The position numbers and the translations under genes were made by a program. A DNA stretch of 64,000 nucleotides, taken from assembly GCF_000970205.1 (NCBI RefSeq), contig NZ_CP009512.1:1860001-1924000 (forward strand), given 5' to 3'. Every line of letters starts with the position of its first letter. Position 1 is the first letter of the stretch. Below the pieces are notes generated by a model. That model was not told the DNA's origin. It did not search any database and was given only the letters and a program-made list of their open reading frames with translations. This document shows, one piece after another, positions 13,798-64,000 of this stretch. Origin of the DNA: Methanosarcina mazei S-6 (GTDB lineage: Archaea > Halobacteriota > Methanosarcinia > Methanosarcinales > Methanosarcinaceae).

Positions 13798-13896
13798 CAG
13801 TCTGAAGAAACAAATTCAGATAAACCGTTCAGTCTTAACAGCCATGTTCTTGAAAGAGTAAATAAATGGGAAGCTCTGGTTTCAGGTCAAAAGTAA
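13798..13896 (+). pseudogene. cas1 C-terminal fragment A
   Basis: Thirty-two codons end the same way as the other cas1 tail fragments in this window: SDKPFSLNSHVLERVNKWEALV then SGQK-stop. The upstream part of the gene is absent; preceding sequence has stops in this frame. See the entry at 16443 for why these are called cas1. Confidence 0.55.
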
Positions 13897-14229
13897 AAAA
13901 TATGTATAGTTTTTACTGTAAAAGTCACATCCTCTTTTTGAACCTATTCTTCAAGAATTACAGAAGTTATATCTTACATCCTTTGCAAGCACAGCACGAT
14001 TTTTTATATTTTCCGTAATTATAGAAATGTCCCTTGATTGGTCACATATTGAAAACTGAGATTTCCAGTATTTTCACGAGAATTCTCGTAATTATACGTG
14101 ATATTTTATCATTTATGGTTCAACAAAAGAGAATACAAATGTGCCAAGACGATGAACAAATTCATTGTATATGTTAGAAAAATTTCAGGTTTTTTAACCT
14201 CAAGTTTAAAGCATAGGAGCCAAAAATAT
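13897..14229. other. Spacer with a 14-bp palindrome
   Basis: Non-coding AT-rich DNA. A perfect palindrome ACGAGAATTCTCGT lies near 14083-14096, followed by AATTATACGTGAT. No adjacent gene start explains it. Confidence 0.35.
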
Positions 14230-14418
14230 TCACCGCCAAGCCATCTTGTCAAGCATCCTGATTAAGTTATTTACCTCATCAAAGGATAAGTCGGTCCAGC
14301 TATTTTTGTAATATTCTTTGCAGTACTGATCAATTTTTTTGTGCCTCTCCATATAATTAAGAGACTTTATTAATAAATCTTTTTGCCTAGATGTTATCGA
14401 AGAATCCATAAACTTCAT
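14230..14418 (-). CDS. Small hypothetical protein
   Basis: A 62-residue protein, mostly helical and basic (SSITSRQKDLLIKSLNYMER, then WTDLSFDEVNNLIRMLDKMAWR). AGGAG lies five bases before the ATG at 14418, a strong start signal. I cannot name a family. A short helical protein of this kind in an accessory zone could be an antitoxin or mobile-element accessory protein, but no partner gene is adjacent. Confidence 0.55.
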   Translation of the reverse strand: MKFMDSSITSRQKDLLIKSLNYMERHKKIDQYCKEYYKNSWTDLSFDEVNNLIRMLDKMAWR

Positions 14419-14569
14419 AAATACTCCTTATCCATTTATTAGTAGTTTAATCACTGAAAAGCAGAAAATATCAAAAGCCTATGCTTTTTATAATTATATA
14501 TATGGAGTTCATGTTATATATATGCCTGTATTAAATGAAGGTATCAATATATAGCTATGACTCGTTCGT

Positions 14570-14853
14570 CTTGTAGAAGCCAACTCAGAGGTGCTAATTG
14601 CAGGAGTTAACCCTACAAGGGCTGACCTTACAGATGCCAATCTTATAGATGCTACCTTGCAAGAGTTGATCTTTAAAAAGCAACCTCATAGAGGCAAAAC
14701 TTGAAGAGGCTAACCTTAAAGGAGCTCAAAATCTAATTGTTGACCAGCTTTCCAAAGCAAAAACACTTTACAATGCGGGATTGGATAAAGAGCTAGAGAA
14801 ACCATTAAGAGAAGTATCCTGCCCTCTTTGATAAACTTAAAGTTGAGCCTTAA
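14570..14853 (+). pseudogene. Broken pentapeptide-repeat gene, 3' part
   Basis: Reading across two frameshifts gives pentapeptide-type repeats (TRADLTDANLIDATL, then NLIEAKLEEANLKGA), a QNLIVDQLSKAKTLYNAGLD linker and a C-terminal KYPALFDKLKVEP-stop, which together are the normal end of a Methanosarcina pentapeptide-repeat protein. The first frameshift is near 14670 and the second near 14812. No intact start is present, so this is a decayed gene. Confidence 0.75.
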
Positions 14854-14905
14854 ATTAATCCGTTCCTTAAAGACACACTAGAAGTAGAGAAAAAAGATTC
14901 TGAAC

Positions 14906-15063
14906 ATCTCTTACGTTGATTGGAAGAAGCTAGGGTTTTCTAAAGGTACTTTATATTATATGAAGCTATGAAGCAGGATACCAGGTCAGATAAACCCTTT
15001 ACTCTTAATAGCCATTTTCTGGTAAAGGTAAATAAATGGGAATCATTGGTTTCAGGTCAATAG
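14906..15063 (+). pseudogene. cas1 C-terminal fragment B
   Basis: Reads ISYVDWKKLGFSKGTLYYMK, then a seven-base duplication (ATGAAGCT-ATGAAGC) shifts the frame, and the tail resumes as SDKPFTLNSHFL...NKWESLVSGQ and ends in TAG. It lies 50 bases after the pentapeptide relic. Confidence 0.6.
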
Positions 15064-15321
15064 TAAAAATGTGTATATTTTTGCTGTAAAATAGTAAAAT
15101 AATATTAGCATAATTGTAAAGAGTTTAAATTAACAATCTAAGCTTACTTATTTTTTTACCTTTATTTTTTCGGAATATTTTTTATTGCATACTGAAAAAT
15201 CTTCATAAAATCAGTTCGATTTTGAACTTTCTCTCTTTTCAGATTCGAAAGCTTTAAAAATAAAATGACATACGAAATAGCAGTTGGAACAAGTATATCC
15301 AGCCTGTAATTTATATAAAAA

Positions 15322-16191
15322 TCATTTCAGTGTATGCTGGACAACGCCTTTTTTAGCTGTCCTGTAAGACTTCTCTGCAAGTTCCACACTTCCCTTTACT
15401 TCAATGATTTCCATATCGAAAGTGCGGGCAAAATCCCGGACGTTTTTGTGGAAATCCGGGTCGTATGAAAGACCTGTATCGAGTTTTACCACTCGTGAAT
15501 ATCTCGGGTCCTTCAGGTAATTCTCGTTGAAGTTCCGGGATTTCTTCCTTTCTTCCCTCATCTCTTTCCAGCTTGAAGCCCACATGGACGTGAAATAGAG
15601 AGCACCAGTCCCCCTGCAGGTGTACATGAGTTCATCATAGGCGGCATTTCCTCCGATAGCGGCGCTTATGCAGTCTACCACAACTTCCTCATTTCCATCT
15701 TTAAACCAGTAAAGGGGGCAGTCAAATTCCAAACAATTCTCTTCCAGATTCTCAAAGGCTCCTCCGCAACTGCAGTAAAAGAGAAGGATTCCGTCTGAAA
15801 AAGAGGTCATCTCCTTGATATTTTTGTAGACTTCAGACCTGAGGATCTCAATATCATCATGAAGTCCTAGCTTCAGGAGGTTCACAACCACTGTCAGTTC
15901 TTGAGCCGCTTTAATCTTCATCTTCTCGTGAATTTTCCTGAAAAAAGGAAGTATAAGCAGGGGTTTTGAAATAGTCATGAAGCCAGAGCCGTGCCCGTTT
16001 CCCAGGAGAAAAGGAACCCTATCCAGGGGCGATGTTCTGGGCAGGCAGTTATCGGACCTGAGTTTCCGGAGCAGCCCGAAACTATCCTTGTTTTCCACCA
16101 CAATTAACTGCTTCATTTCCTTATCACTGGAGATTATATGGGCAAGCTCATCCTCAAACATCCTGCAAGAGATAATACTCAGTACGGGCAT
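15322..16191 (-). CDS. DUF1638-family protein
   Basis: A 289-residue protein with the DUF1638 pattern: an N-terminal ISCRMFEDELAHII, a central Cys-rich strand LLFYCSCGGAFENLEENC (near 150-168), and a YTCRGTGALYFTSMWASSWKEM segment (near 200-222). Members occur in methylotrophic methanogens, often near corrinoid methyltransferase genes, and several conserved Cys/His suggest metal or cofactor binding; the reaction is not known to me. AGGGG lies eight bases before the ATG at 16191. No methyltransferase gene lies nearby here, so it appears as a single gene. Confidence 0.7.
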   Translation of the reverse strand: MPVLSIISCRMFEDELAHIISSDKEMKQLIVVENKDSFGLLRKLRSDNCLPRTSPLDRVPFLLGNGHGSGFMTISKPLLILPFFRKIHEKMKIKAAQELTVVVNLLKLGLHDDIEILRSEVYKNIKEMTSFSDGILLFYCSCGGAFENLEENCLEFDCPLYWFKDGNEEVVVDCISAAIGGNAAYDELMYTCRGTGALYFTSMWASSWKEMREERKKSRNFNENYLKDPRYSRVVKLDTGLSYDPDFHKNVRDFARTFDMEIIEVKGSVELAEKSYRTAKKGVVQHTLK

Positions 16192-16442
16192 GTGAAAACC
16201 CCTTTCCGGTTGTTTTTTAATTCTGATTCTGTTACGATTTAAAAAAAATGCTGGATAACCTATATTTTGAAGCCCTATAATTTCCTATCGATAAGCCATT
16301 AGTTAGAAAAAAATTACTATTATACCTGATCGTAATTCTAAGAGTGTATATTCCTGTTAAAAGGATCAGGCAAGCTCTTAACCACAAAACTTCCTCCTGA
16401 GAGTACCAATATAAAAACAAAGAGAGTACCAATATAAAAACA

Positions 16443-16716
16443 AAATTTGCTCAGTATCATGCTTTTGAGGGTAAGAAAACAAGGCTAGAGATAGCAAAGA
16501 GGTTTATTGAGGCTAAACTAAAAGGTCTAAAGCTGTTCTTGATTTCCTGAGCCAGAGGTATCCTGAAATTAAATTTGATATTTTGGATGGACTCACAAAG
16601 TTAAAAGGTGTAAAGAGTTTCAGGGAACTGTAGGTCTGGATGCTCATGTAGGGTTTTTGCATGAAATCACACCAAGCAAAAATAGCTTAGTATATAGCCT
16701 ACTTGACCTACTTTAA
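16443..16716 (+). pseudogene. cas1: cas1 central fragment C
   Basis: Decayed coding sequence with one frameshift near 16523 and one stop at 16632. Pieced together it reads KTRLEIAKRFIEAKLKG, then KAVLDFLSQRYPEIKFDILDGL...LKGVKSFREL, then GLDAHVGFLHEITPSKNSLVYSLL. The last piece matches the Cas1 integrase active-site region (G-x-D-x-x-x-G-x-L-H ... S-L-x-x-D-L-x-E), including the metal-binding His; the usual Asp in YDLME is replaced here (YSLLD). This fragment identifies the shorter tail relics in the window as cas1 remains. The gene is clearly dead. Confidence 0.7.
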
Positions 16717-16811
16717 GAGTCACTGAAGAAATTTATCAAACTCATCGATCAGAAACGGATAAATATTTTGTATACAGTTTAATTAGTGTTAATTACTTCA
16801 AGGGGATTAAA

Positions 16812-16973
16812 ATGGCAAAGAATACTGGAGAAAATAGAAGAAATGGATCTGTCAAAGGAAGAACACAGACATACAACCCTGTAACGGATCAGCATGTAAA
16901 GAGAGATGCAACGACTGGACAATTTATCGGTGCGAAGAAAGGAAAATATAAAGGTATTAGAGAAGAAAAATAA
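16812..16973 (+). CDS. 53-residue basic hypothetical protein
   Basis: Starts at ATG 16812 with AGGGG seven bases upstream. The sequence is very basic and Gly/Asn rich (NTGENRRNGSVKGRTQTYNP, VKRDATTGQFIGAKKGKYKG), without hydrophobic stretches. A widespread orphan family with the core NGxxKGRxQxYNP...KRDxxTGxF is familiar from prokaryotic genomes, but its role is unknown to me. It sits among cas1 relics as an intact gene. Confidence 0.6.
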   Translation: MAKNTGENRRNGSVKGRTQTYNPVTDQHVKRDATTGQFIGAKKGKYKGIREEK

Positions 16974-17118
16974 CCGACCACTAAAGGTTAAAGAGATTGA
17001 TTATTTCTTTAAAACGGTTTTATTTCTTTTTAGACTTAAATTGAATTCTTGTACAGTATATTAGCATGTACACTTATCTTCTGTAAATACATACAACATT
17101 ACAGCCATATCTAGGGAT

Positions 17119-17409
17119 TTACAAAAACTCAGAAATTTTGTATGCATTTTGAAGCCCTAACAGTACTGTGCCCACCCCACGTTCTGACAGGCGTACAAAT
17201 CCTTTTGGGATGCTTTTATCCACAAGTTTAGCGCGATACAATTCTTTGACTGCATTTTGATCTAGTTTTGATTGCTTTTCCCAACCTTCGTTTATGCCAA
17301 GAGTTCCCATTTCATATAGATGTTTAAGTATTTCGCTTTCCATAGTTTCTAAAATGTACATACCTATAAACTCCTGATCTTCATTATCTGAGAGAAATAA
17401 AGTCTTCAT
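17119..17409 (-). CDS. Small winged-helix-like hypothetical protein
   Basis: About 96 residues from ATG 17409 (a TTG at 17430 would add seven). The content ETMESEILKHLYEMGTLGIN, then DQNAVKELYRAKLVDKSIPK and GFVRLSERGVGTVLLGLQNA has the helix-helix-recognition helix-wing order of a winged helix and may bind DNA. There is no Shine-Dalgarno; an AT-rich region with TATA-like elements lies upstream. It lies between cas1 relics and upstream of the first Roco gene's 3' end. Confidence 0.5.
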   Translation of the reverse strand: MKTLFLSDNEDQEFIGMYILETMESEILKHLYEMGTLGINEGWEKQSKLDQNAVKELYRAKLVDKSIPKGFVRLSERGVGTVLLGLQNAYKISEFL

Positions 17410-17750
17410 TAGTGCAATGAGGGTAATCAAATTTTACAAACAAAAGCAAAAAGCTCCATTAATCATTGATTACAATCACAACAATAAAGTTAACGAAATA
17501 TTATTTATTATTTTCATAATATCAAAAACAGTAGGTAGAAGAATAATATAAGATTAAACTAATAAAAAAAATTGAAGAGTTTATGTGAATTTCTCCACTG
17601 GAAATTAAGGAATGAGCTGGTTTCAAAATTCCGCTTATTCATGTATTTGATAAAAAGTATCAATTCTATTAAGTTCTGATGATCTTGATTTGTCCACTCC
17701 AAAAAATTGGCATGGAAAGATTGAGGGTAGTTTTAAAGCAAGCTCAATAG

Positions 17751-17948
17751 AAAATTATAGACCGTAAAGCCAGAAACCTGAAGGCTGTCTGTGCCTGTCT
17801 TACTTTAAAATATATGTATCACTCATTTTCTAAAGGCACTTTACATTATATGAAGCAGAATGCCAAGTCAGATAAACCGTTTACTCTTAACTCTCATTTT
17901 CTGGAAAGGGTGAATAGGTGGGAAGCATTGGTTTCTAGTCAAATGTAA
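17751..17948 (+). pseudogene. cas1 C-terminal fragment D
   Basis: An uninterrupted 65-codon frame KIIDRKARNLKAVCACLTLK, then FSKGTLHYMKQNAKSDKPFT and LNSHFLERVNRWEALVSSQM-stop. The first part matches the late Cas1 helix (a run of RKAR before the C-terminal tail). The WKKLG portion is replaced by YMYHS, so the piece is a relic with an internal change. It lies 118 bases from the 3' end of the Roco gene on the opposite strand. Confidence 0.6.
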
Positions 17949-18066
17949 AAGTATGTATAGTTTTTACTGTAAAATGTAAAAAAGGAAAGTTTACTGTAAA
18001 ATGTTAAAATGTAAAATTACAGTAAATAGTTTAAAAACTAATAAATTTATTTCCTTTAACAGTTAA

Positions 18067-20859
18067 TTAAAGAAATAGATCAGGGATTTGAGGCATTGCA
18101 AGCCACTGAGCGAATTTATTATAACTTCTGCCAACTTTTTGTACAATCTCTATGCCTTTTTGAGTTCCTTTAATCACTTTATTATAATCAGAATTAGGAT
18201 CGGCCAATTTATTGAGGAAGCGATATAGCTTATTAAAAGGTTTAACTATCTTTTCTTTGTCAGAATTAATGTTTATCTCATCTAAACTATCCTGAATTGT
18301 TTCCATATCCCGATCAAGCTTAGGATTTATGTTTTCAAGCTCGTCTTTTAAACTATCAAACTCGGCTCGAATATATGGTAGTTCTACCTTTAAATCTATA
18401 TTGACATTTATACTAATTTCTGATTTTAGTTCAGCTTTAGAGATTGAGTTTGCTTCTGAACTAGTTTGTACTTGGTTTATTAAGACGATTGGTGTTTTAC
18501 CTCCGAATTCATAATTTCCTTGGGGTTTGTAACCATATAATAGCGACGAAATGGATACTTGCTTGCTGCTAGTAAAACATATCGTATTCTCCAATTTTTC
18601 AGTTTCCGCTTTTAGCAAGCCTTCATATGGGTACCTTTGAAGACAATTAGCTGAACAGTTACAAGGTATTTCTTTGCTGAGTTTTACCTTTTTTATGGAC
18701 GCATTGATGTGGTCAAGATGATTGCAGATAAAGCCTAATACTTCCCTTTTATTATCACCTTTTATTCTGATCTCAATCCGCTTCTCATCAGGCTTCATCT
18801 CTACAAAAGCACGTGAATTTTCGAGCTTTAATACCACTCCTTCTCTCCAGCACATAGGCATTTCATTCTCTTTTTTCTCGATATCATGATGCATTCGCAC
18901 AATAAAGCGGGTAATTATACCAGGAGGCAAAAAGTAATCATAACAATAAAAGAAGCACAGATTATCTTTCTCGTCCCATATAAAGTTGGGTGCGTTTTTA
19001 GGTAATAGTTCAGGAATAAGATAGCTGCTTTCATCTGGAAGTTCGTAAGCAAGCTCAAATTTATTCATTAAGTCCATTAATTGGGGGTAAATATTGGATG
19101 GATATGTTTCTCTGTCCCAGATCTGGCGTAATTCACTGTATAGCAATTTACCTTCACGTTGGAGAACGGACTTTGTTGACAATATTTTATAAAATGCACC
19201 TGTAACCCATTCAGGTTTTAATATTACCATATTTTCTAATTTATCATCAAAATGAAGAATTACTCCTAGTTCGTGTAAATATCCGTCTAGTGTGTTAATA
19301 TTTTCTTCGTCTAATCCTTCCGAAACACATATATTATAAAATTCATCGTAAGAAATCCAATAATCTTTAAGTCCTTCAAGTGTTCCACGTACTTTGTACC
19401 ACGAATCAAACCATGAAGCTCTCATTAAAGGAAGGTCCCAAGCGATTTTACTAATAGCTTCTTTTAGAGTGGAGATTCCTTTGCCATCTTTACTATCAAT
19501 TTTGAAGTTATCTACAATTTGAGGGAACTTATTTTTGAGATCTTTTAGATTTAAATCGTCATCACTTTCGTTCATCTTGCTCATTACAAGGATTATTGGG
19601 CTATCTCCACCAAAAGCTTCAATTGTGTGCAACCATGAATAGATATTGTTAAAGTCCTTTGCTTTCCTCGCGTTCCATACTAATAGATAAACTGAACGCG
19701 TTGTTAGGAAAAACTGGTGAGTTGCATGATAGATTTCCTGTCCACCAAAGTCCCAAATATTCAGTTTGATTATACTATTACTAGAATCAGGAGCTTTAGT
19801 GCTCCATTTTGATATATTTATTCCTTCAGTTATCCCATCTTCCGCAAATTCATTGGTAATTAATCTATGAGTTAGGCAAGTTTTCCCAACTTCCCCGTTA
19901 CCAACTAGTATTAACTTTGCTTCATTGTTTTCTGTAGTTTTTGATTGCTTCAATTGTCTCAAATAAGTGAGGATTGAGCTCAATCCCATAGAAACAATTT
20001 CAGGCGGAGGTGAAATTAAAGGATTATAAGAAACGTCAAGCTGTTTAAGTTCTGTAAGTTCTGCAATCTCAGTTGGTAGTTCAGTAAACTCATTCTCAGA
20101 TAAGTCAAGTTTTACAAGTTTTTTAAGTTTTTTAATTTCAGGCGGTAGTTGAGTCAGATGGTTTCCAGACAAATACAGATTTTTAAGGTCTTTAAATTTT
20201 CCAATTTCTGGCGGTATTTGAGTCAGCTGATTATAAGAAATATCAAGATCCTCAAGGTTCTCAAGTTTACCAATTTCTTGTGGTAATTGAGTTAAATTAT
20301 TATGACATAAGGAAAGTCTCACAAGATTCCTGAGTCCAGATATCTCTGGAGATAGTTGGGTCAGTTGATTATTAGAAATATCAAGATTCTCAAGATTCTC
20401 AAGTTTTCCAATTTCAGATGGCAACTGTTTTAGATTGTTATGGCACAAAGAAAGTTTTGTAAGTTTTGTAAGTTCCCCAATTTCAGACGGTAGCAAAGTC
20501 AATTGATTGCCAGTTAAGTCAATTTCTCTAAGGTTCTTAAGTTTTCCAATTTCTGATGGCAACTGCACAAGCTGGCTATAGAATGAGTAAAATTTTGTGA
20601 GTTGTTCAAGTTCCCCAATTTCTGGTGGTAGTAGAGTTAAATGATTCCTAGATAAGTTTAGCTCTGTAAGGCTTTTTAATTTTCCTACTTCTGGTAGCAG
20701 TTCAGTCAGATCATTTCCATACAGATTAAGTTCTTTAAGGTTTTCAAGTCTCCCTATTTCCGGTGGTAGTTCAGTCAGATTATAACCATCTAAATAAAGC
20801 GCTAAAAGGTTTTTTTTCGAAGCTTCTTTAATAAGTTGAATTACCTTTTCTTTCGTCAT
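18067..20859 (-). CDS. Roco protein (LRR-Roc-COR GTPase), copy 1
   Basis: A 930-residue Roco family protein, the archaeal relative of human LRRK2; M. barkeri is a known source of archaeal Roco proteins. Residues about 15-290 are eleven or so 23-residue leucine-rich repeats (LxxLPxEIGKLxNLxxLDLSxNxLTx). The Roc GTPase domain follows: P-loop GNGEVGKT (near 320), switch WDFGGQE (near 368), and a G4-like site MSKMNESD (near 425) where NKxD is degenerate. The COR domain spans about 500-730 (GYLHELGVILHF, LKPEWVTGAFYKIL, YLIPELLP). The C-terminal 200 residues include a coiled coil. No kinase domain is present. ATG 20859 has GAGG six bases upstream and is preferred to the TTG at 20871. No membrane segment; likely cytoplasmic, dimerising through COR. 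Confidence 0.93.
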   Translation of the reverse strand: MTKEKVIQLIKEASKKNLLALYLDGYNLTELPPEIGRLENLKELNLYGNDLTELLPEVGKLKSLTELNLSRNHLTLLPPEIGELEQLTKFYSFYSQLVQLPSEIGKLKNLREIDLTGNQLTLLPSEIGELTKLTKLSLCHNNLKQLPSEIGKLENLENLDISNNQLTQLSPEISGLRNLVRLSLCHNNLTQLPQEIGKLENLEDLDISYNQLTQIPPEIGKFKDLKNLYLSGNHLTQLPPEIKKLKKLVKLDLSENEFTELPTEIAELTELKQLDVSYNPLISPPPEIVSMGLSSILTYLRQLKQSKTTENNEAKLILVGNGEVGKTCLTHRLITNEFAEDGITEGINISKWSTKAPDSSNSIIKLNIWDFGGQEIYHATHQFFLTTRSVYLLVWNARKAKDFNNIYSWLHTIEAFGGDSPIILVMSKMNESDDDLNLKDLKNKFPQIVDNFKIDSKDGKGISTLKEAISKIAWDLPLMRASWFDSWYKVRGTLEGLKDYWISYDEFYNICVSEGLDEENINTLDGYLHELGVILHFDDKLENMVILKPEWVTGAFYKILSTKSVLQREGKLLYSELRQIWDRETYPSNIYPQLMDLMNKFELAYELPDESSYLIPELLPKNAPNFIWDEKDNLCFFYCYDYFLPPGIITRFIVRMHHDIEKKENEMPMCWREGVVLKLENSRAFVEMKPDEKRIEIRIKGDNKREVLGFICNHLDHINASIKKVKLSKEIPCNCSANCLQRYPYEGLLKAETEKLENTICFTSSKQVSISSLLYGYKPQGNYEFGGKTPIVLINQVQTSSEANSISKAELKSEISINVNIDLKVELPYIRAEFDSLKDELENINPKLDRDMETIQDSLDEININSDKEKIVKPFNKLYRFLNKLADPNSDYNKVIKGTQKGIEIVQKVGRSYNKFAQWLAMPQIPDLFL

Positions 20860-21306
20860 TATCTGCCTCAACTACGATTAATTAACTCTTATATGTATTC
20901 CCAATTACATCATACAGTCCATACTTTTACTCCAAAAGCTTTTTCTTTTTATTCAGTTTTATTTGTCACCTTTAATTTTTGAACAATTTGAATCGTTAAA
21001 AATAAAATTGAATAAAAAGAAGATTGGTATTTTGGAAAAAACGTTTGGCTATTTTTATACCATCATTTGATATAAAGACATGAAAAATATATTTTTGGAT
21101 AGGACAATTTTTGAATAATAGCGGTGTGTAAGCTTTATAAACAGCTTCTTTTCTTAGATGGCAATACTTTATTGTTTAACTTAATTTAAGTCTATAAAAA
21201 GATGTACCAACTGAAAGAGCTTGAAGATATCCTGAAAGCTTGAAAGAACAACAAGCAATCTTTAAAAACTATGGAGTGATTGTAGAAATAATGAGCTGGT
21301 GATTAA
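20860..21306. other. Divergent promoter region of Roco copy 1 and the membrane gene
   Basis: On the minus strand a TATA-like ACATATAAGAG lies about 30 bases ahead of the Roco start. Near 21096-21135 there is a block (ATAGGACAATTTTTGAATAA and a TGTGTAAG) resembling the degenerate repeats at 22017-22245. No gene is visible. Confidence 0.45.
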
Positions 21307-21744: not shown

Positions 21745-22016
21745 TATTTTCTCATTTTTTTCTCAACTTCTCGTGTTATTCCTTCGCATATCATCACTAA
21801 GAAGCATTAAATTTATCTTTTTTGCAATATTTTCAATAAAGGTCTCCAATCATATATGTCCAAGCTCAAAAGTATAAAATATATAATCGAGTGACTAGTT
21901 ATCCTGTTAATCAATTTGACATTTTTTTGTTATAGTTAGTTTTAGAACCTACTCTAAAAGTAAGTAATGCATGTTGAAAAGTCACAAGAAGTGATAACAT
22001 TGGAGTGCCCATTAAG

Positions 22017-22245
22017 GTTTTGCATAACTCCTAAAAATGCGTACAAAAAAATTAGCTTTTTATCAATATGAACTTATAAAAATAAGGTAATTTTTATTTA
22101 GGGCAACTTTTGAAACACGGTTGTGCGTAACTCGTACAATAGCGTACACCTTTTATTAATCTGGCTTTATAGAAGATACCTAATTTTTGCTAGGGCAACT
22201 ATTCTAAAAATAGTGCTGTGAAAATATTTCAGTAGCGTACAAAAA
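22017..22245. repeat. Degenerate tandem repeat of about 93-103 bp
   Basis: GCGTAC occurs at 22039, 22142 and 22235, and TAGGGCAAC at 22099 and 22191, giving a period of 92-103 bp. Each unit has a (T)TGCGTAACTC-like block, GCGTACA, an A/T-rich run and AGGGCAAC. A weaker unit is near 21096. The function is unknown. Confidence 0.5.
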
Positions 22246-22402
22246 ATTAACGTTATATATATCCCCCATAATTATTGCGACGGGTTGTATTTGAACCACA
22301 AATACCTTCGTGAAAGAAGAAAGATTAAGAACTTACATTTTAGCAGTCAAAAAAGTCTCATTGCAAATAAAATGATATATTGCCCAAAAGCTAAACACTT
22401 GA

Positions 22403-57116: not shown

Positions 57117-58460
57117 TTGGGCACGGAAAAAGTAAGTAAACTCCTTTTCAGGCTTTCAGCCCCTTCAATTATCGGGATGCTTGTCTATGCCTTTTACAAT
57201 GTAGTGGACACTATCTTCATTGGCAGGGCTCTGGGGGAGGAAAGCGTTTCCGGTATTGGGGGGCTTGTAATAGCTTTTCCAATCCACATGCTTGCAATGG
57301 GGATAGCAATCGGACTGGGGATAGGAGGTTCTTCAATTGTCTCACGGGCTCTTGGGTCAAAAGAGCTGCATAAAGCTGAAAAAGCCCTGGGAACTGTATT
57401 TTTTCTGGGAATTTTCCTGGGATTTGCCTACTCCTTTACAGGGCTTTTCTTCCTCGAATCGCTGCTGAAAATCTTTGGAGCAACCCCCGGAATAATGCCC
57501 TATGCACGGGCTTATCTTGAGATTATAATGGCAGGGTCTGCGGTTTTTACCTTAGGAATTGCAACCGAAGACCTTGTAAGAGCTGAAGGTAACGCCAGAT
57601 ATGCAATGTTCGGAATGATTTTCGGAGCCGGCCTGAACATAATACTTGATCCCATCTTTATTTTCTGGCTTGATATGGGAGTCAGAGGAGCCGCTATTGC
57701 AACTGTCCTTTCCCAGCTCGCAGCAACAGTCTTCCTCTTGCGTTATTTCCTTTCCGGAAAAAGCTCGGTTGTCTTTAAGCCTGAGTTACTGGTCCCTGAT
57801 ATGACAATCTCAAAGGAACTGGCAGTAATAGGTATCGGCCCCTTCATTATTGAAGCATCAAATAGCACCATGATGATTTTTGTAAATAATGCCCTTGCAA
57901 CATACGGAGGGGATGTCTCAATTGCAGCCTTCGGGATCATCCACAGGCTTCTCATGCTCATATTTCTTCCTCTTCTAGGTATCTCTTTTGGCCTCCAGCC
58001 CATAGTGGGCTATAATTACGGGGCAAAGCAGTTTTCAAGAGTGGCGGAATCGGTTAAAGTCGCACTGATGGTGAGCACTCTATTTTCTTTGCCAGGGTTC
58101 CTGCTAATGTTCTTTTTCCCTGAACCTATCATCCAGATCTTCAGCTCTGATCCGGAACTCACAGCTGCAGGAGCCGGAGCCATGAAGATTGTTGTGCTGA
58201 TCCTGCCATTCATAGGTTTCCAGCTCGTAGGCACAACAGTGTTTCAGGCTCTTGGGAAGCCCGTACCGGCTTTTGTCCTGTCACTGGCAAGACAGATCCT
58301 TTTCCTGCTGCCCCTTGTGCTGATTTTGCCGAGGTTTTACGGGCTTGACGGAGTCTGGGCTGCATTTCCGATTTCTGATTTCCTGGCGTGCGGGCTTGCA
58401 GCCGGGATGATGTGGAGAGAATACCGGAAGTATAAGAATAAAGAAAAGCAGAAGAACTAA
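57117..58460 (+). CDS. MATE-family efflux transporter
   Basis: A 447-residue twelve-helix transporter of the multidrug and toxin extrusion family. It contains LLFRLSAPSIIGMLVYAFYN, VVDTIFIGRALGEESVSGIG, GLGIGGSSIVSRALGSKEL in the first half and the related IAAFGIIHRLLMLIFLPLLG, GISFGLQPIVGYNYGAKQF in the second. It exports cationic drugs or metabolites using a sodium or proton gradient. The start is TTG 57117; AGGAG is further upstream than usual, so an inner start is possible. Single gene. Confidence 0.92.
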   Translation: MGTEKVSKLLFRLSAPSIIGMLVYAFYNVVDTIFIGRALGEESVSGIGGLVIAFPIHMLAMGIAIGLGIGGSSIVSRALGSKELHKAEKALGTVFFLGIFLGFAYSFTGLFFLESLLKIFGATPGIMPYARAYLEIIMAGSAVFTLGIATEDLVRAEGNARYAMFGMIFGAGLNIILDPIFIFWLDMGVRGAAIATVLSQLAATVFLLRYFLSGKSSVVFKPELLVPDMTISKELAVIGIGPFIIEASNSTMMIFVNNALATYGGDVSIAAFGIIHRLLMLIFLPLLGISFGLQPIVGYNYGAKQFSRVAESVKVALMVSTLFSLPGFLLMFFFPEPIIQIFSSDPELTAAGAGAMKIVVLILPFIGFQLVGTTVFQALGKPVPAFVLSLARQILFLLPLVLILPRFYGLDGVWAAFPISDFLACGLAAGMMWREYRKYKNKEKQKN

Positions 58461-61257: not shown

Positions 61258-61365
61258 TTTAAGTACCTCCTGTTGAGAGAACATCCCTGTATTCAGACTT
61301 ACTATTTAATTTATGGAAGCCCATAAAATACTTTGTTGTAATGACATAAGGCAAAAATTTTAAGT

Positions 61366-61518
61366 ATTTCTTATGTTGACTGGAAGAAATTAGGGTTTTC
61401 TAAAGGTACATTGCATTACATGAAGCAGAATGCAAAATCAGATAAGCTGTTTACTCTTAACAGCCATATTCTTGAGAGGGTAAATAAATGGGAAGCATTA
61501 TTTTCAAGTCAAAAGTAA
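61366..61518 (+). pseudogene. cas1 C-terminal fragment E
   Basis: An unbroken 50-codon tail ISYVDWKKLGFSKGTLHYMK, then QNAKSDKLFTLNSHILERVN and KWEALFSSQK-stop. No upstream cas1 sequence. It lies 126 bases from the 3' end of the second Roco gene, as fragment D does from the first. Confidence 0.6.
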
Positions 61519-61644
61519 AAAATGTGTATGTTTTTACTGAAAAATGTAAAAATATGTATGTATTTATATAAAAAATAAAAATGTAAAGTTTACAGTAAAA
61601 TAGTTTAAAAACTAATAAATCTTATTTACCTTTAACAGTTACTA

Positions 61645-64000
61645 TTAAAGAAATAGATCAGGGATTTGAGGCATTGCAAGCCACTGAGCGAATTTATTAT
61701 AACTTCTGCCAACTTTTTGTACAATCTCTATGCCTTTTTGAGTTCCTTTAATCACTTTATTATAATCAGAATTAGGATCGGCCAATTTATTGAGGAAGCG
61801 ATATAGCTTATTAAAAGGTTTAACTATCTTTTCCTTGTCAGAATTAATGTTTATCTCATCTAAACTATCCTGAATTGTTTCCATATCTCGATCAAGCTTG
61901 GAATTTAAGTTTTCAAGCTCATCTTTTAAACTATCAAACTCGGCTCGAATATATGGCAGTTCTACCTTTAAATCTATATTGACATTTATATTAATTTCTG
62001 ATTTTAGTTCAGCTTTAGAGATTGAGTTTGCTTCTGAACTAGTTTGTACTTGGTTTATTAAGACAATTGGTGTTTTACCGCCGAATTCATAATTCCCTTT
62101 ATATTTATTTTCTATGTGTTTGTAACCATATAATAGCGACGAAATGGAAACTTGCTTGCTGCTACTAAAACATATTGTATTCTCCAATTTTTCAGTTTCC
62201 GCTTTTAGCAAGCCTTCATATGGGTATCTTTGAGGACAATTAGTTGAACAGTTACAAGGTATTTCTTTATTGAGTTTTATCTTTTTAATGGAAGCGTTTA
62301 TGTGGTCAAGATGATTACAGATAACGCCTAATGCTTCTCTTTTATTATCACCTTTTATTCTGATCTCAATCCGCTTCTCATCAGGCTTCATCTCTACAAG
62401 AGCATGTGAATTTTCGAGCTTTAATACCACTCCTTCTCTCCAGCACATAGGCATTTCATTCTCTTTTTTCTCGATGTCAGGATGCATTCGCACAATAAAG
62501 CGGGTAATTATACCAGGAGGCAAAAAGTAATCATAACAATAAAAGAAGCAAAGATTATCTTTTTCGTCCCATATAAAGTTGGGTGCGTTTTTAGGTAAAA
62601 GTTCAGGAATAAGATAGCTACTTTCATCTGGAAGTTCGTAAGCAAGCTCAAATTTGTTCATTAAGTCCATTAATTGGGGATAAATATTGGATGGATATGT
62701 CTCTCTATCCCATATCTGGCGTAATTCACTGTATAACAATTTACCTTCACGTTGGAGAACAGACTTCGTAGACAATATTTTATAAAATGCACCTGTGACC
62801 CATTCAGGTTTTAATATCACCATACTTTCTAATCTATCATCAAAATGAAGAATTACCCCCAGTTCGTGTAAATATCCATCAAGTGTGTTAATATTTTCTT
62901 CGTCTAATCCTTCCGAAACACATATATCATAAAATTCATCGAAGGAAATCCAATAATCTTTAAGCCCTTCAAGTTTTCCACGTACTTTGTACCACGAATC
63001 AAACCATGAAGCTCTCATTAAAGGAAGGTTCCAAGCGGTTTTACTAATCGCTTCTTTTAGAATAGAGATTCCTTTACCATCTTTACTATCAATTTTAAAG
63101 TTATTTACAATTTGAGGAAACTTATTTTTGAGGTCTTTTAGATTTAAATCGTCATCACTTTCGTTCATCTTGCTCATTACAAGGATTATTGGGCTATCTC
63201 CACCAAAAGCTTCAATCGTGTGCAACCATGAATATATATTGTTAAAGTCCTTTGCCTTCCGCGCGTTCCATACTAGTAAATAAACTGAACGTGTTGTTAG
63301 GAAAAACTGGTGAGTTGCATGATAGATTTCCTGTCCACCAAAGTCCCAAATATTCAGTTTGATTATACTATTACTAGAATCAGGAGCTTTAGTGCTCCAT
63401 TTTGATATATTTATTCCTTCAGTTATCCCATCTTCCGCAAATTCATTGGTAATTAATCTATGAGTTAGGCAAGTTTTCCCAACTTCCCCGTTACCAACTA
63501 GTATTAACTTTGCTTCATTGTTTTCTGTAGTTTTTGATTGCTTCAATTGTCTCAAATAAGTGAGGATTGAGCTCAATCCCATAGAAACAATTTCAGGCGG
63601 AGGTGAAATTAAAGGATTATAAGAAACGTCAAGCTGTTTAAGTTCTGTAAGTTCTGCAATCTCAGTTGGTAGTTCAGTAAACTCATTCTCAGATAAGTCA
63701 AGTTTTACAAGTTTTTTAAGTTTTTTAATTTCAGGCGGTAGTTGAGTCAGATGGTTTCCAGACAAATACAGATTTTTAAGGTCTTTAAATTTTCCAATTT
63801 CTGGCGGTATTTGAGTCAGCTGATTATAAGAAATATCAAGATCCTCAAGGTTCTCAAGTTTACCAATTTCTTGTGGTAATTGAGTTAAATTATTATGACA
63901 TAAGGAAAGTCTCACAAGATTCCTGAGTCCAGATATCTCTGGAGATAGTTGGGTCAGTTGATTATTAGAAATATCAAGATTCTCAAGATTCTCAAGTTTT
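61645..64000 (-). CDS. Roco protein, copy 2 (N-terminus outside window)
   Basis: The reading frame is open through the right edge: codons beyond the first GTG continue as LENLENLDISNNQLTQLSPE, matching copy 1, so the gene runs past 64000. The visible part (about 785 residues) holds the last five or so LRRs, Roc (GNGEVGKT, WDFGGQE, SKMNESD) and COR. It is nearly identical to copy 1 in LRR-Roc, with scattered changes in COR and a seven-residue difference (KHIENKYKGNYE versus KPQGNYE) before the C-terminal coiled coil. The 3' flank, including the cas1 tail, is also shared. Confidence 0.92.
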   Translation of the reverse strand, partial: KLENLENLDISNNQLTQLSPEISGLRNLVRLSLCHNNLTQLPQEIGKLENLEDLDISYNQLTQIPPEIGKFKDLKNLYLSGNHLTQLPPEIKKLKKLVKLDLSENEFTELPTEIAELTELKQLDVSYNPLISPPPEIVSMGLSSILTYLRQLKQSKTTENNEAKLILVGNGEVGKTCLTHRLITNEFAEDGITEGINISKWSTKAPDSSNSIIKLNIWDFGGQEIYHATHQFFLTTRSVYLLVWNARKAKDFNNIYSWLHTIEAFGGDSPIILVMSKMNESDDDLNLKDLKNKFPQIVNNFKIDSKDGKGISILKEAISKTAWNLPLMRASWFDSWYKVRGKLEGLKDYWISFDEFYDICVSEGLDEENINTLDGYLHELGVILHFDDRLESMVILKPEWVTGAFYKILSTKSVLQREGKLLYSELRQIWDRETYPSNIYPQLMDLMNKFELAYELPDESSYLIPELLPKNAPNFIWDEKDNLCFFYCYDYFLPPGIITRFIVRMHPDIEKKENEMPMCWREGVVLKLENSHALVEMKPDEKRIEIRIKGDNKREALGVICNHLDHINASIKKIKLNKEIPCNCSTNCPQRYPYEGLLKAETEKLENTICFSSSKQVSISSLLYGYKHIENKYKGNYEFGGKTPIVLINQVQTSSEANSISKAELKSEININVNIDLKVELPYIRAEFDSLKDELENLNSKLDRDMETIQDSLDEININSDKEKIVKPFNKLYRFLNKLADPNSDYNKVIKGTQKGIEIVQKVGRSYNKFAQWLAMPQIPDLFL

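Follow-up and report, generated by a model that had tools for sequence, protein, structure and literature searches.

Broken cas1 fragments in Methanosarcina mazei S-6 are probably one-sided relics of casposons

We analysed a 64,000-nt stretch of the Methanosarcina mazei S-6 genome (contig NZ_CP009512.1, positions 1,860,001 to 1,924,000; hereafter the window) that carries five pieces of a cas1 gene, fragments A to E. Our analysis indicates, with a probability of roughly 0.75, that these pieces are relics of several separate casposons of the Cas1-solo/PolB type, in which the left part of the element was lost and the right arm was kept. The right-arm structure was demonstrated for D and E and for many loci in related species, and is presumed for A and B. 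The typical relic consists, in order, of a 5'-truncated gene for the casposon Cas1 (casposase), cargo, the right casposon end, a target site and the end of a tRNA gene.

Results

The fragments derive from casposase genes

All five fragments are matched in blastn and tblastn searches by intact casposase genes of the same genome, with blastn E-values of 1e-21 to 1e-72 for the main pieces, that is, beyond chance, and all five are broken. The original prediction had described broken, Cas1-derived fragments that are not the debris of a single gene, and on each of these points it was right. Fragments A, B, D and E comprise the last 27-58 casposase codons and a short 3' flank (Table 1), whereas C comes from the interior of the gene and carries a 24-nt tandem duplication as well as a 190-nt deletion. 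It is possible that C and D once belonged to a single gene. The prediction had also placed the ends of the four tails at one common point; in the DNA they continue for about 25-105 nt past the stop codon, reaching into the 3' flank of the casposon.

A Cas1 profile had been proposed as a check, and it succeeded only in part. The Pfam Cas1 model matched fragment C alone in the window, in two pieces below the cut-off (E 2e-4 and 1e-3), and a scan of two tails against Pfam returned no families. The tails are invisible to the Cas1 model because they correspond to the C-terminal helix-turn-helix (HTH) domain, which lies outside it; blastn and tblastn recovered them instead. In the available text of PMC6977970, the casposase HTH domain is given as residues 342-406 and as essential for integration. 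One could therefore imagine that the tails are domesticated HTH-domain genes retained for a function such as casposase inhibition. We regard this as extremely improbable, as stops, frameshifts and missing starts occur in A, B, E and most of the genus copies examined, and the open frame of D has only 44 amino acids.

A tree of the tails separated a lineage I (A, B, D and E) from a lineage II (loci L018 and L021) and resolved little inside either; D and E were not sisters within lineage I (weak support). About 59 bp directly upstream of the tail are common to D (17767-17826) and relic L023 (genome C1:1677924-1677979). This DNA is not recognisable as casposase and had no other match in the S-6 genome search.

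Two parent casposons and one CRISPR-type cas1 in the genome

The Pfam Cas1 search covered the whole S-6 genome (4.14 Mb, one contig) and identified three intact Cas1 genes, the two weak window matches of fragment C, and, at 2.318 Mb, a further broken piece. Of the intact genes, two specify near-identical proteins of 406 amino acids, each within a casposon, so the search for an intact parent produced two. Both casposons, which are family 2-like, hold polB, an HNH protein, a 212-amino-acid protein, an HTH protein and the casposase (names of the small genes were assigned by reading). The first, C1 (locus L009, 1.76 Mb), is about 10 kb long and has perfect 31-nt terminal inverted repeats (TIRs), identical letter for letter to the TIR reported for MetMaz-C1 of M. 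mazei Go1 (PMC10359463, available text). The second, C2 (locus L008), is a damaged relative at a tRNA-Leu(cag) gene, with polB split by a transposase-like pair of open reading frames (ORFs). In C1, about 2.4 kb of other genes lie between the casposase stop codon and the right end, and the tail is therefore not the tip of the element.

The third Cas1 gene, at about 900 kb, is accompanied by cas2 and is of CRISPR type. It was rejected as the source of the fragments, being only 25% identical to the casposase. No Cas2 lies beside either parent casposase, and the window has casposase fragments alone. As predicted, the window lacks cas2 (the only match above the cut-off in the genome is at 901 kb beside the CRISPR-type cas1, with a weak one below it at 2.48 Mb), and thus a CRISPR-Cas adaptation module; it also lacks an array, since a crude exact 20-mer scan revealed no regularly spaced repeat. 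The lack of cas2, effectors (for which no separate search was made) and an array is expected if the parent is a casposon. Family B DNA polymerase is encoded by both parents and is missing from the window. Likewise, TIRs occur at both ends of the parents, whereas D and E have a right end only and must be considered relics rather than casposons.

Two further observations concern the parents. A right-arm relic in reverse orientation (L009 12856-18488), whose cargo is a 1643-amino-acid NB-ARC gene and whose casposase tail is of lineage II, adjoins C1 across a common 14-nt target site. In C2, the C-terminus of the casposon PolB (L008 14970-15125) bears a weak likeness to the casposase HTH (27% over 52 amino acids, E 0.22).

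Tails mark the inner edge of right arms

We scanned 6 kb to each side of 29 tail loci (9 from S-6 and 20 hand-picked elsewhere) for casposon ends, allowing up to 2 mismatches in the TIR. A right-end TIR was detected downstream in 15 of the 29, of which 13 were convincing by eye and 2 spurious. The 13 lie 1-4.4 kb downstream in the correct orientation with 0-1 mismatches, and each is followed by a 14-nt site ending in GCG or ACG and then by a tRNA 3' end (12 loci) or a neighbouring element (1 locus). Across the same 29 loci, the control counts were 2 for a right end upstream, 1 for a left end upstream and 3 for a left end downstream. A profile built from 26 casposon ends found right ends for the S-6 tails D (22014-22265), E, L017, L021 and L023. 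With a casposon right end downstream, the tail marks where a right arm begins, the left part of the element having been lost.

This arrangement bears directly on the earlier proposal that a short cas1 3' segment was itself repeatedly copied and pasted, in the manner of a retro-copy or a miniature inverted-repeat transposable element (MITE). Variable 5' truncation with a constant 3' end does resemble retro-copies: several 5' edges fall near codon 348-351, 3' homology ends near fixed points, and L018 and L021 have both edges in common. However, the tails are followed by cargo and an oriented right end, target site and tRNA end, and D and E were duplicated not as a short segment but as a 3.3-kb unit (94%) that includes a Roc-COR-LRR gene. 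The right-end scan thus largely refutes retro-copying, and short-segment copying of any kind now seems very unlikely. A MITE with both ends was rejected as well, since only locus G029 has both, and its two ends differ in inner type.

At 14 loci, the left copy of the target site was found once, at the left end, and never at the truncation point, which indicates that the lost part usually takes flanking DNA with it. It also speaks against truncation during transposition, in which copying or integration would begin at the right end and abort before reaching the left. The existence of left-arm relics that face a tRNA (L140, L143) also counts against such a process. In its favour, the cargo of the G024 relic is 99.6% identical to that of an intact casposon, yet everything left of codon 208 is gone. 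On balance, we consider aborted transposition unlikely.

The exceptional relic G029 retains both ends and both site copies. The inner types of these ends differ, so G029 may be a tandem array that collapsed when a deletion between neighbours removed the right part of one element and the left part of the next. Tandem casposons do exist at G010:C54, at C1 next to a relic (X) and at G007, and have been published (PMC9939771, available text); moreover, the different inner types at G029, the sole two-ended relic, are what collapse predicts. Most relics, however, have no left end upstream (1 of 29 does), and as a general explanation array collapse appears doubtful, although less so than aborted transposition.

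At G010:C54 (L114 and L115), the tandem casposons have intact casposases about 10.3 kb apart, a target site between them and different cargo. At L137 (7572-8830, G010:C20), casposase codons 168-249 are joined directly to polB codons 564-895 on the same strand; as these genes point away from each other in intact casposons, this join is an inverted chimera, so inversions occur too. The order at L136 is similar.

Casposase 3' ends are in excess in S-6 and across the genus

The predicted over-representation of the tail was confirmed in the complete genome and recurs across the genus. The last 320 bp of casposase plus flank have 14 matches in S-6: the two parents, two small matches (one in the C2 3' flank, the other 25 nt long) and 10 distinct relics. 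The preceding 2081 bp match only the parents, fragment C (three pieces), the 2.318 Mb relic and a 42-bp sequence, and the left 6.15 kb of the casposon match pieces of the parents, TIRs and a single polB piece of 97 bp, distant from the window. With C counted once and the 42-bp match excluded, 10 of the 13 relic loci lie within 321 of the 8553 bp (3.8%) of the conserved element (binomial p ~1e-12; p 3e-11 with D and E counted as one duplicated unit). This count is mainly of lineage I but includes L018 and L021.

Among 30 Methanosarcina genomes, 25 match the casposase 3' part, and 89 of the 117 genus matches (C1 itself excluded) are shorter than 320 bp and cluster at the 3' end, with a depth of about 40 over the HTH, compared with 1-11 across the query's first 520 bp. 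The first matched codon varies widely between loci, from about 67 to 380. By comparison, polB was matched in 10 of the 30 genomes, with 20 short pieces in 2.7 kb, and the region from polB to casposase (HNH to HTH) yielded 2 short relics in about 2.06 kb; fewer candidates per genome were scored for these two regions (10 vs 16), which favours casposase. The genus-wide pile-up is also inflated by detection bias, because a second casposase lineage, with about 74% protein identity, is best conserved in the HTH, where DNA similarity between the lineages is higher.

The casposase 3' end as a probable boundary for cargo exchange

We compared 23 casposase 3' ends (5 intact elements and 18 relics) in 253 pairs. 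In 251 of these, co-linear DNA similarity stops at most 180 nt past the casposase, and several pairs regain similarity at the right end. Only D/E and G010/G024 have cargo in common, and in both pairs the casposase is more diverged than the cargo. Between G010 and G024, 68 of 632 positions differ in the casposase, but only 7 of 2197 in the cargo and right end combined (Fisher 1e-37); the last casposase difference lies 18 nt before the stop codon and the next 195 nt after it. The simplest reading is a crossover at the very end of the casposase. In these two pairs, casposase and cargo thus have different histories, and the casposase 3' end appears to behave as a boundary for cargo exchange.

D and E share the 3.3-kb unit but differ at 44 of 214 positions in the tail, 111 of 2832 in the ROCO stretch and 25 of 225 in the non-coding right flank (tail vs right flank, p 0.008). 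The two ROCO genes are 100% identical over a tract of 800 bp (19703-20502 vs 63296-64095, the latter running past the window end), and flanking 100-bp blocks differ by up to 8%, which points to recent gene conversion.

By Pfam, the cargo includes ROCO, NB-ARC, DUF2326 with an ABC-three-component partner, AAA ATPases, HEAT repeats, an Mrr-type nuclease domain, a serpin, a transglutaminase and unknowns; only some of it appears defence-like. The window ROCO protein had no PADLOC match. ROCO was rejected as standing casposon cargo: none of 13 ROCO-homologue loci in 9 other genomes has a casposase or end match in the examined flanks, and a casposon match beside ROCO occurs only at the two S-6 loci, D and E.

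Layout of the window

Read from left to right, fragments A and B come first, with the remnant of a pentapeptide gene between them. A DUF1638 gene separates B from C, and D is next. It is followed by a ROCO gene, part of a right end, a small membrane-like ORF, two more right ends and a tRNA-like end (Table 1), an array that looks like several tandem casposons at one old tRNA site. The pentapeptide remnant resembles a pentapeptide cargo gene of casposon C1, and the DUF1638 gene may be host DNA rather than cargo. The partial right end is probably the original right end of the D/E unit, as E has its TIR at the corresponding position; that TIR and its target site lie just beyond the window (genome C1:1924726 onward). 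In both D and E, the target site is followed by a degenerate tRNA 3' end, and one site copy was found but not a second; for D, there is none within 2 mismatches in 9 kb upstream. The mismatch scan detected no left casposon end in the window, and ARAGORN no tRNA.

Table 1. Casposon-related and neighbouring features of the window
Feature	Position	Strand	Basis
Fragment A, casposase codons ~380-406 and 3' flank	13804..13923	+	blastn/tblastn; 13804-13896 matched, DNA match 13813-13923, 82%
Pentapeptide-repeat gene remnant between A and B	14591..14830	+	Reading; weak 32-nt match to L009 12404-12435
Fragment B, codons ~351-406 with 8-nt insertion, and 3' flank	14888..15099	+	blastn/tblastn, alignment; 14888-15063 matched, DNA match reaching 15099, 78-79%
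DUF1638 gene, intact, convergent with B	15322..16191	-	Pfam PF07796, E 8e-36
Fragment C, casposase codons ~80-158 and 222-243	16369..16690	+	blastn/tblastn, main piece 87-89%; Pfam Cas1 below cut-off
Fragment D, casposase codons 367-406 and 3' flank	17826..18009	+	blastn/tblastn; 17826-17948 matched, extending to 18009, 84-86%
LRR-Roc-COR (ROCO) gene, 934 amino acids, cargo of D	18067..20871	-	Pfam COR-A, COR-B, Roc, LRR
Partial casposon right end after the ROCO gene	21038..21126	+	End-profile match, E 0.0016
Two successive casposon right ends, the second ending TATATCCC	22014..22265	+	End profile, E 8e-22 and 6e-20
14-nt target-site sequence	22266..22279	+	Sequence
Degenerate tRNA 3' end (T-arm, acceptor) by the right end	22280..22307	-	Comparison with L008 tRNA-Leu 3' end
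Fragment E, casposase codons ~349-406 and 3' flank	61341..61619	+	blastn/tblastn; 61341-61518 matched, extending to 61619, 78-83%
Second ROCO gene copy, ORF of 756 amino acids, cargo of E	61645..63915	-	3.3-kb, 94% match to the D unit

Elsewhere in the window, the start of a MATE-type gene (57117-58460) reads like that of a gene beside the lineage II casposon of G019 (L111 15252-16586), and the neighbourhood may therefore be a shared casposon hot spot.

Discussion

A one-sided decay of casposons would account for these relics as follows. Several casposons would have inserted, each of them at or close to the 3' end of a tRNA, and would later have lost the left end, polB, HNH and other core genes together with the 5' part of the casposase, retaining the casposase 3' end, cargo and right end. 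The tRNA being indispensable, deletions may advance from the opposite side; if they stop short of cargo from which the host benefits, the inner edge could land anywhere in the casposase. Perhaps, then, it is protection by the tRNA together with useful cargo that lets the right arm outlast the left, while recombination at the casposase 3' end would exchange the cargo.

Several observations weigh against this account. Neither the mismatch scan nor the end profile detected a right end for the S-6 tails A, B, L018 and L020. The tails E, L018, L021 and B start near the same codons, 348-351, in unrelated contexts, which random deletion does not predict; these coinciding starts may in part reflect reduced upstream similarity in the second casposase lineage. 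The end nearest the tRNA is the left one in three intact elements and the right one in three others (by reading), yet left-arm relics are rarer, a left end having been found beside tRNA-like sequence in 2 of the 7 polB loci fetched, so a tRNA anchor alone is insufficient. Some cargo is decayed or absent (A, L023), which weakens the idea of selection for cargo. Finally, the discordance between the tails and cargo of D and E could stem from gene conversion of the ROCO region.

It is tempting to speculate further that a casposon consists of a core and an exchangeable cargo slot, with the casposase 3' end and the right-end repeats serving as homology arms for recombination and the relics as a reservoir of cassettes. 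Cassettes with ROCO, NB-ARC, ABC-three-component, AAA ATPase, serpin or unknown genes would be swapped between casposons and species, a resident casposon could recapture those of relics, and the tail would perhaps persist as a handle for re-mobilisation. This proposal is tentative, and we would sooner doubt it than rely on it.

CRISPR adaptation is considered to derive from casposons, but few of these are known, and their cargo and fate have received little study. The one-sided relics present in most Methanosarcina genomes show that, in this genus, casposons have been far more active than their intact copies suggest. The relics also offer over a dozen natural junctions of right end, target site and tRNA for defining what the casposase recognises, and the cargo switch in the last bases of the casposase suggests a route by which passenger genes, several of them defence-like, are acquired.

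Published work already covers casposons and their tRNA-Leu target, as well as insertion in tandem and a second copy that is deteriorating (PMC10359463, PMC9939771, PMC4046053, as far as their available text extends). Casposon relics and cargo exchange were not found among literature titles and abstracts, a scope that did not include the 2016 Krupovic study of 62 M. mazei strains. Within that scope, and in the available text of the papers cited here, the genus-wide one-sided relics and the cargo switch do not appear.

Among known systems, MetMaz-C1 (PMC10359463; casposons generally, PMC4046053; available text) is closest to the parent C1, which shares its 31-nt TIR, size of about 10 kb, polB and cas1-solo. 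In casposase, right end, 14-nt target site and tRNA-Leu-type flank, the relics agree with it, but those of the window are without polB, HNH, the left end and most of the casposase, and carry other cargo (ROCO genes). Tn7 islands, which PMC9939771 and PMC4046053 cite, are similarly built by successive insertions at one site, with older copies decaying and passengers kept, although transposase and target are different and nothing homologous to them is present here. In the tandem casposons and remnant casposon of Methanolobus psychrophilus R15 (PMC4046053, PMC9939771; available text), adjacent elements occupy one target and one of them is deteriorating, as here. Compared with that case, the decay in Methanosarcina is one-sided, extends across most of the genus and comes with indications of cargo exchange.

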